From Bacteroidia bacterium (GTDB taxonomy: Bacteria; Bacteroidota; Bacteroidia; UKL13-3), in the NCBI GenBank assembly GCA_021740845.1, contig JAIOYZ010000002.1:124001-188000 (forward strand): 64,000 nucleotides of DNA, given 5' to 3'. Positions 36,903-38,043 of this stretch are shown here, piece by piece. Each line of letters begins with the position of its first letter. The first letter of the stretch is position 1. A model generated the notes under the pieces. That model did no database searches. It was not told where the DNA came from and saw only the letters and a program-made list of their open reading frames with translations. A program made the position numbers and the translations under genes.

Positions 36903-36977
36903 GGTGGTTTTAGCTCAGTTGGTTAGAGCGCCTGATTGTGGTTCAGGAGGTCGCCGGTTCGAGCCCGGTATTCCACC
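36903..36977 (+). tRNA. tRNA-His (GUG)
   Basis: Anticodon arm CCTGA-TTGTGGT-TCAGG gives anticodon GTG. The D arm GCTC/GAGC, variable loop AGGTC and T arm GCCGG-TTCGAGC-CCGGT are intact. The extra 5' G (36903) and discriminator C (36977) are the histidine identity pair. CCA is not encoded. Two U-U mismatches appear in the acceptor stem (GTGGTTT against ATTCCAC, positions 5:68 and 6:67), which is unusual for a functional tRNA. It is still the best candidate for the working gene, with its own promoter and terminator. Confidence 0.85.
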
Positions 36978-36978
36978 C

Positions 36979-37011
36979 AAAAGCCTTTACGAAAGTAAAG
37001 GCTTTTTTTTT
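36979..37011 (+). terminator. tRNA-His terminator
   Basis: AAAAGCCTTTAC - GAAA - GTAAAGGCTTTT with T to 37011: a long perfect stem with a GAAA tetraloop. The same terminator recurs after each derived copy (37126-37155 and 37271-37303). Confidence 0.9.
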
Positions 37012-37036
37012 GCTTAATTTTCAAGAAAACTTTTTA

Positions 37037-37123
37037 AAGAATAGCTCAATTGGTTAGAGCGTCCCGATGTGAAATCGGGAAGGTCGCTGGTTCTCCCGAT
37101 TATTATCGGGACGGTATTCCACC
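37037..37123 (+). repeat. Decayed tRNA-His copy 1 with two palindromic hairpins
   Basis: D-arm and flanks match tRNA-His (AGCTCAATTGGTTAGAGCG, AGGTCGCTGG, GGTATTCCACC). The acceptor 5' half is lost (AAGAAT instead of GTGG...). The anticodon arm is replaced by TCCCGAT-GTGAA-ATCGGGA (37062-37080) and the T loop is interrupted by TCCCGAT-TATT-ATCGGGA (37094-37111). It cannot be a normal tRNA. Units recur with a period near 147 bases. Confidence 0.85.
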
Positions 37124-37125
37124 CG

Positions 37126-37155
37126 AAAGCCTTTACGAAAGTGAAGGCTTTTTTT
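37126..37155 (+). terminator. Duplicated terminator after copy 1
   Basis: AAAGCCTTTAC-GAAA-GTGAAGGCTTT plus T run; one base change (GTAAAGG to GTGAAGG) relative to the tRNA-His terminator turns an A-T into a G-T pair. Confidence 0.85.
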
Positions 37156-37182
37156 ATGCTTAATTTCCAAGAAAACTTTTTT

Positions 37183-37270
37183 AAGAATAGCTCAATTGGT
37201 TAGAGCGTCCCGATGTGAAATCGGGAAGGTCGCTGGTTCTCCCGATTATTATCGGGACGGTATTCCACCC
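37183..37270 (+). repeat. Decayed tRNA-His copy 2 with two palindromic hairpins
   Basis: Almost identical to copy 1 through the whole unit, with hairpins at 37208-37226 (anticodon position) and 37240-37257 (T-loop position). This near-identity means the two copies arose by recent tandem duplication or are kept alike by gene conversion. Confidence 0.85.
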
Positions 37271-37303
37271 AAAAGCCTTTACGAAAGTGAAGGCTTTTTT
37301 TTT
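37271..37303 (+). terminator. Duplicated terminator after copy 2
   Basis: AAAAGCCTTTAC-GAAA-GTGAAGGCTTTT with nine T. It carries the same GTGAAGG change as the copy-1 terminator. Confidence 0.85.
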
Positions 37304-37330
37304 ATGCTTAATTTTCAAGAAAACTCTTTC

Positions 37331-37390
37331 AAGAATAGCTCAGTTGTTTAGTGCGTCCCGATGTAAAATCGGGACGTTGGCTGGTGGTAT
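37331..37390 (+). repeat. Truncated tRNA-His copy 3
   Basis: Keeps the D region (AGCTCAGTTGTTTAGTGCG) and the anticodon-position hairpin TCCCGAT-GTAAA-ATCGGGA (37356-37374), then decays (CGTTGGCTGGTGG). There is no T-arm hairpin, no acceptor 3' end and no terminator. It is the oldest-looking copy and marks the end of the array. Confidence 0.75.
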
Positions 37391-37452: not shown

Positions 37453-38043
37453 ATGGAAGTTAAGGAACCAGATATGACTTATGATAGATACAGCTATGCT
37501 GATTATCTTGGTTGGAATATTCCAGAAATTGTTGAAATTATTAAGGGTCGCGTATTTAAGATGAATGCGGCTCCAAAGAGGATTCATCAAAAAATAAGTG
37601 GCAGGTTATTTCTAAAGTTTGGCAATTTTTTAGAGGGCAAGAAATGCGAGGTTTATGATGCACCCTTTGATGTGAGGCTTTCTAATAATTATGATGAAAA
37701 CCACACTATTTTCACCGTTGTTCAGCCAGACCTATGCGTTATTTGTGATCCAAGTAAACTTGACGAGGCCGGTTGTTTAGGTGCGCCTGACCTGATTGTT
37801 GAAATTTTATCTCCGGGGAATTCCAAGAAGGAGTTGCAAAATAAATATGAGGTTTATGAAGAAAGTGGTGTACTTGAATATTGGGTAATTTCGCCAGAGG
37901 CAGAAACATTGCTTGTTTATTCTCTAATAAATGGGAAATATCAAGCCTCAAAACTTTATACTAGTGGTGATCAAATTTCAACTCCTATCCTTCCAGGATT
38001 ATCAATTAATTTGGAGGAATTATTTCTAGGAATAAATGAATGA
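37453..38043 (+). CDS. Uma2-family (PD-(D/E)XK-fold) nuclease-like protein
   Basis: 196 residues from ATG 37453. A start at 37474 (MTYDRYSYADYLGW) fits the usual family N-terminus and the promoter better. The restriction-endonuclease-like core is complete: VVQPDLCVICDPSKLDEAG, then GAPDLIVEILSPGNSKKEL with Asp, Glu and the downstream Lys, and YEESGVLEYWVISPE. Uma2 (formerly DUF820) proteins are expanded in cyanobacteria and some Bacteroidota; their biological target is unknown, with links to mobile elements proposed. It lies 60 bases after the tRNA-derived array, a suggestive but unproven neighbourhood. Confidence 0.85.
   Translation: MEVKEPDMTYDRYSYADYLGWNIPEIVEIIKGRVFKMNAAPKRIHQKISGRLFLKFGNFLEGKKCEVYDAPFDVRLSNNYDENHTIFTVVQPDLCVICDPSKLDEAGCLGAPDLIVEILSPGNSKKELQNKYEVYEESGVLEYWVISPEAETLLVYSLINGKYQASKLYTSGDQISTPILPGLSINLEELFLGINE

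Follow-up and report, generated by a model that had tools for sequence, protein, structure and literature searches.

The window analysed here is a 64,000-nucleotide stretch of a contig from a Bacteroidia bacterium. At positions 36,903–37,390 it carries an intact tRNA-His gene followed by two units that are 97% identical and a truncated third. The sequence-only reading had described this arrangement with a period of about 147 bases, and the sequence itself, ARAGORN and a repeat search confirm it; the repeat search places the units 146 and 148 bases apart. The intact gene (anticodon GTG; 36904..36978, plus strand) is called by ARAGORN, scores 58.6 bits with Rfam and is essentially identical in 18 sister species. 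No second tRNA-His was found in the window genome. Read from the sequence, its acceptor stem contains two T-T mismatches, and the same stem is kept in the 18 sister species; the gene is sound despite these mismatches. Its terminator, a 12-bp inverted repeat with a T run (36979..37010, plus strand; sequence and inverted-repeat search), precedes the array, so that all units sit 3' of it.

Tandem unit 1 (37013..37158, plus strand; repeat search) consists of a 30-base spacer, a decayed tRNA-His copy and a terminator. The copy (37042..37124, plus strand; repeat search and mapping) begins at about tRNA position 8, its 5' acceptor strand lost. Pattern search and mapping locate two palindromes in it, features to which no strand applies here or below: TCCCGATGTGAAATCGGGA at 37062..37080, in place of positions 27–43, and TCCCGATTATTATCGGGA at 37094..37111, in place of the T-loop bases GAGCC. 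The copied terminator lies at 37126..37157 (plus strand; inverted repeats and sequence). Tandem unit 2 (37159..37306, plus strand) repeats this plan, with a decayed copy at 37188..37270 (plus strand; repeat search), palindromes at the anticodon-arm site (37208..37226) and in the T loop (37240..37257; both by pattern search) and a copied terminator at 37271..37304 (plus strand; inverted repeat). The truncated third unit, from about 37307 to 37390 (plus strand; sequence and repeat search), comprises the spacer, the D arm and the anticodon-arm palindrome (TCCCGATGTAAAATCGGGA, 37356..37374; pattern search) before passing into unrelated sequence. Directly behind the array, at 37453–38040, lies a gene for a Uma2-type putative restriction endonuclease (Pfam). 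A similar-looking ORF fragment stands behind tRNA-His in another genome (G018), where the array is missing.

Both full units retain the D arm, the variable loop, the 3' acceptor strand and the terminator, as the sequence-only reading had stated, and both have lost the 5' acceptor strand. That reading also saw TCCCGAT-N5-ATCGGGA in the anticodon arm; mapping sharpens this to an exact swap of the whole arm, positions 27–43, in which 17 nt are exchanged for 19 nt. The palindrome that it took to be gained by the T loop (TCCCGAT-TATT-ATCGGGA, 18 nt) is present, but it is not a pure gain, since the five bases GAGCC are missing at that site. Gene conversion between the arms, offered there as one origin of the shared sequence, is not needed because the two loops differ: the anticodon-arm palindrome keeps GTG, and the T-loop palindrome has TATT. 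The palindromic arm pattern occurs five times in the window against 0.00 expected (none in 100 shuffles). ARAGORN calls no tRNA in the units and Rfam gives no match even at E ≤ 5, decayed copy 1 included. Folding of the unit as RNA predicts a single long hairpin (−32.9 kcal/mol) in which palindrome 1 pairs with palindrome 2, so the alternative folds proposed earlier are borne out as a prediction. The predicted fold is better than that of shuffled sequences (z about −2.9), and the two palindromes alone would suffice to make it stable.

The array is absent from all 18 sister species, each of which has an intact tRNA-His gene, and it is therefore species-specific among those compared. Absence from relatives was one of the observations that the sequence-only reading had named as speaking against it and for a chance local duplication. 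Similar palindromes, whose absence it had also listed, were found elsewhere in the same genome, and chance local duplication is not supported, since arrays of this architecture recur in many species beside genes of different tRNA types (His, Ala, Phe, Val, Lys, Gly, Met, Asn, Asp, Arg, Ser, Leu, Thr and Tyr). Within the window genome, partial copies adjoin 11 of about 32 tRNA genes, and most of these copies bear a palindrome in an arm. Palindromes of the TCCCGA type lie beside His, Ala, Phe and Arg-TCT, TCTCGTCA types beside Asp and Ser, CCCGCCCGA types beside Arg-CCG and Arg-CCT (mostly in the D loop) and a TCCGCC type beside Met; the Val copy is a short remnant with no palindrome. At another locus (L170, 1184–1780), a series of T-arm copies with TCCGCCTGAGGCGGA and a TCTGGCCTCTGGCTCC repeat come after tRNA-Met.

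Longer arrays were found in a genome assembled as one contig (G062), which was picked for its high palindrome count and in which all tRNA genes were then examined. Six of its 35 tRNA genes have adjoining partial copies, five of these six bearing palindromes, and of its 31 palindrome clusters 6 are no more than 500 bp away from a tRNA gene (P = 4.5 × 10⁻⁷). Four arrays (L300–L303) consist of 7 to 13 near-identical units with periods of 63 to 99 bases: 11 units of 80 bases beside Asn, with the palindrome in the D loop; 13 units of 63 bases beside Leu-TAA, in the T loop; 7 units of 65 bases beside Thr-GGT, in the T loop; and 7 units of 99 bases beside the second Leu gene, Leu-TAG, in the D loop. 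The Asn gene is also followed by two downstream units with a GIY-YIG-like ORF, as read from the sequence, which end in a T-loop palindrome.

A combined pattern of the D arm and TCCCGA/TCGGGA was matched in 7 of 64 genomes of the family and in 53 of 392 Bacteroidota genomes of at least 90% completeness; the reversed control gave a handful of matches. Isolates among the matches listed in a scan of named genomes include Flavobacterium soyae, F. hydrocarbonoxydans, Flavipsychrobacter stenotrophus and Neolewinella maritima, and a few of the matches listed fall outside Bacteroidota, for example in an Uhrbacteria genome. Similar tRNA-linked palindromes were observed in an Uhrbacteria and a Chloroflexi genome (L097 and L123), perhaps through horizontal transfer. 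The copies are cut off at varied points, and their acceptor and T arms differ from one another. Some arrays are of an upstream type, placed between leader and tRNA, where by their position they would be co-transcribed; one such array, in F. soyae, comprises three units. None of the papers searched describes arrays of the present kind, in which satellites derived from tRNA stand in tandem and a single palindrome has overwritten their arms throughout a phylum.

To define where the palindromes sit, 143 tRNA-adjacent hairpins were mapped onto the cognate intact tRNA, and the replaced intervals proved to have fixed borders. For the interval 27–43, both borders are seen in 39 cases and the left one alone in 16; 28–34 was found in 7 cases (Asn and Ser) and a T-loop interval, 56–60 or 55–59, in 8, other hairpins lying in the D loop or at 37–45. 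For most of the sample the search pattern leaves the left border free over 15 bases and the right border unconstrained, which means that the sharpness seen at 27 and 43 is not a product of the search. The TCCCGA/TCGGGA stem stays the same in many genera and types of tRNA, and the loop varies from 4 to 9 bases. In the 27–43 class, the anticodon of the tRNA concerned is found in the palindrome loop in 10 of 46 distinct cases against 2.1 after label shuffling (P < 5 × 10⁻⁵), a statistic that includes one decayed copy miscalled as tRNA-Ser and treats cases as independent, which those from related genomes are not. These retained bases indicate that the stem in this class was overwritten and the loop inherited, and insertion of a ready-made palindrome fails to explain the anticodon-arm cases. 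For palindromes of the D and T loops, which mostly have the AGCT core of the interspersed copies, no significant retention of native bases was seen (P = 0.21), so retention is claimed for the anticodon class alone. A tentative proposal, which we consider rather unlikely as a whole, is that TCCCGA/TCGGGA was not simply inserted and that a process acting through a hairpin-recognising protein, or through selection for a hairpin, rewrites the stems of redundant tRNA arms and spares the loop. The arrays would then form a class of hairpin arrays that derives from tRNA, spans the phylum and is coupled to GIY-YIG nucleases specific for tRNA isotypes; they would serve either as sites of resistance within a chromosomal homing system or as RNA decoys.

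The palindrome is also an interspersed repeat, present in 56 of 62 genomes of the family in up to 213 copies (the highest count, in G033), against 0–2 for the reversed control; shuffles and reversed control patterns rule out a chance origin of the pattern. Its origin is separate from the amplification of the tRNA. At one locus (L225, 1150–1460), next to a GIY-YIG gene, it takes the place of GACT in tandem copies of a hairpin repeat that is not a tRNA. A dispersed repeat seen in two copies (L015, about 1260–1390, and L016, about 1150–1300) contains a longer palindrome around TCCCGAT..ATCGGGA with no tRNA.

The mobile palindrome suggested by the sequence-only reading thus stands insofar as the element is interspersed and occurs in other tRNA copies of the genome; its comparison with Rickettsia palindromic elements or REP units mobilised by RAYT is not supported. 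Rickettsia palindromic elements are likewise palindromic DNA inside genes, but they are longer and noted for in-frame insertion in coding genes, which was not seen among the tRNA-linked copies and the sample of others inspected. REP sequences resemble the present element in being short palindromes that are scattered through a genome in many copies, frequently in tandem (PMC3733652, PMC8266576, PMC6006769), and have a GTAG or CGTC tetranucleotide at one end (PMC3733652). Neither tag was found in the flanks of the window palindromes (GCG/AGG and GGTTC/CGGT), the genome with 213 copies gave no Y1_Tnp match, and here bases are replaced inside tRNA arms. Partial rank correlation of the palindrome was 0.20 with Y1 and 0.33 with GIY-YIG, and RAYT mobilisation was ruled out by the missing tag and the independence from the Y1 transposase. 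Ordinary tRNA pseudogenes are also decayed, truncated copies, but here one palindrome replaces arms at fixed positions and the units are amplified in tandem.

An ORF with GIY-YIG features separates the intact tRNA from the decayed copy in 18 of 29 downstream cases. All ten ORFs sampled from these cases matched Pfam PF01541 (E from 3 × 10⁻¹² to 1 × 10⁻¹⁸), and the tRNA-linked proteins, of which F. soyae has an example at tRNA-Ala, are 80–105 aa long. Several of the ORFs end inside the decayed tRNA (units L017, L164, L100 and L023); an example at tRNA-Val of G001 ends ...KKIAQLVQGIPT. Four of the seven small GIY-YIG genes of the window genome lie within 500 bp of a tRNA gene, a zone covering 0.7% of the genome (P = 9 × 10⁻⁸), and so do four of its nine palindrome loci (P = 3 × 10⁻⁷). 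Small GIY-YIG genes or remnants were observed in this genome beside tRNA-Asp, Arg-CCT, Ser-GCT and Met (L164, L168, L176 and L167). A tree of 20 tRNA-linked nucleases clusters by tRNA isotype (8 changes vs 11.9 after shuffling, 0/200), with Val pairs from different host families grouping together at modest supports; host relatedness may explain part of this clustering. Just 3 of the 29 top-scoring GIY-YIG genes of the family lie near a tRNA, and away from tRNAs the link between nuclease and palindrome is weak (palindromes at 4 of 29 loci vs 0.57 expected, P = 0.003). The window array contains no GIY-YIG ORF; a 30-base spacer stands in its place, with no nuclease remnant that can be claimed, and the upstream-type arrays contain no such ORF either. 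Around the GIY-YIG genes of L220, L221 and L226 another palindrome, CCCCGAG[CT]ACTCGGGG, was seen, and in L220 it replaces T-loop bases of an apparent tRNA-Asp copy.

The closest precedent on record comes from phage T6, whose GIY-YIG homing endonuclease SegB cleaves tRNA genes internally, preferring the motif RAWTSGAAC, and together with recombination gives rise to tandem repeats of tRNA-Tyr and C-terminally truncated segB (PMC13096335). By our reading, the motif is the complement of the T loop, GTTCSAWTY. SegB amplification in T-even phages (PMC13096335, PMC2988022) shares with the nuclease-bearing Bacteroidota arrays a tRNA-linked GIY-YIG nuclease, tandem repeats of tRNA and nuclease, a junction between the nuclease 3' end and the tRNA 5' end, a C-terminally truncated nuclease and a cleavage motif coinciding with the T loop. 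The present arrays differ in occurring on bacterial chromosomes across a phylum, in their predicted nucleases of 80–105 aa and in being held in genomes, the extra tRNA copies being dead and palindrome-bearing and the window unit being without a nuclease gene; the bacterial nucleases may also differ from SegB in target.

Because the nuclease-bearing arrays share the order and junction of the SegB repeats, we favour, with a probability of roughly 0.5, the reading that the array represents a satellite built from a duplicated tRNA gene, arising through local amplification linked to tRNA-targeting GIY-YIG homing nucleases, after which the redundant copies were disabled by the interspersed palindrome. 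By analogy with SegB, a small tRNA-linked nuclease would cut the tRNA gene or its surroundings, and recombination would leave tandem copies whose junction joins post-terminator sequence to the 5' part of the tRNA. One copy would stay intact, and the TCCCGA/TCGGGA palindrome would disable redundant copies in one or two arms, a step of which the sequence preserves the result and not the event. The last step is directly visible in the array: the disabled unit was itself copied in tandem. For tRNA-His, the nuclease ORF would have been lost, or a paralogue beside another tRNA gene would have acted in trans. The palindromes leave the copies dead as tRNA and may also abolish nuclease sites: the T-loop palindrome falls inside sequence matching the SegB motif. 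The T loop is intact in many copies whose palindrome occupies the anticodon arm, so a SegB-type site is not generally lost. Also against the favoured reading are the missing GIY-YIG ORF in the window array and in upstream-type arrays, the location of most top-scoring GIY-YIG genes of the family away from tRNAs, and the cognate loop bases kept by anticodon-arm palindromes.

A largely passive origin is a less probable alternative, though one to be taken seriously. Ordinary slippage or recombination would duplicate tRNA genes, a loop-preferring REP-like palindrome would enter the redundant copies, insertions into working ones being lethal, and the GIY-YIG genes would be passengers favouring the same sites. 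The interspersed and sometimes very abundant palindrome, its replacement of part of a non-tRNA hairpin repeat and the existence of GIY-YIG-free arrays, the window included, all agree with this; what it fits poorly is that nearly all adjoining tRNA copies bear palindromes (most of the 11 in the window genome, five of six in G062) and that the GIY-YIG ORFs hold a constant place in many independent units. Less probable still, the decayed copies might be selected tRNA-like RNAs or protein-recognised hairpin sites, for example decoys against tRNA-cutting enzymes or integrases. Selection on the stem would be expected to give a constant stem and a variable loop with anticodon bases, the upstream arrays would be co-transcribed, and the window unit folds better than shuffles. 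Against such a role speak the position of the window units downstream of the tRNA terminator, the varied truncation points and differing acceptor and T arms of the copies, the restriction of the His array to one of the species compared, and the fact that the two palindromes alone account for the stable fold.

Partial tRNA copies at tRNA loci are a common trace of phages or islands that integrate in tRNA genes, and integration scars were considered as an origin on that basis. We regard this origin as very unlikely: the copies include the D arm and the terminator in exact tandem, the palindromes in the arms are left unexplained, and the candidate was rejected when Pfam detected no integrase among seven neighbouring proteins. 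An assembly artefact, conceivable in a genome of 66 contigs, is extremely improbable given units that differ by substitutions and spacing and the presence of comparable arrays in isolates and in a genome assembled as one contig.

Transfer RNA genes are well established as targets of mobile DNA. Should the link to the nuclease be real, the nuclease-driven amplification of tRNA genes described in phage T6 would extend to bacterial chromosomes, and the arrays would preserve a natural trace of the places at which these enzymes act on tRNA genes. The replacement of stem for stem, sparing the anticodon loop, raises the question of how a short palindrome gets written into an existing hairpin. The same process would also explain why some GIY-YIG ORFs extend into tRNA sequence and why annotation yields odd tRNA calls.
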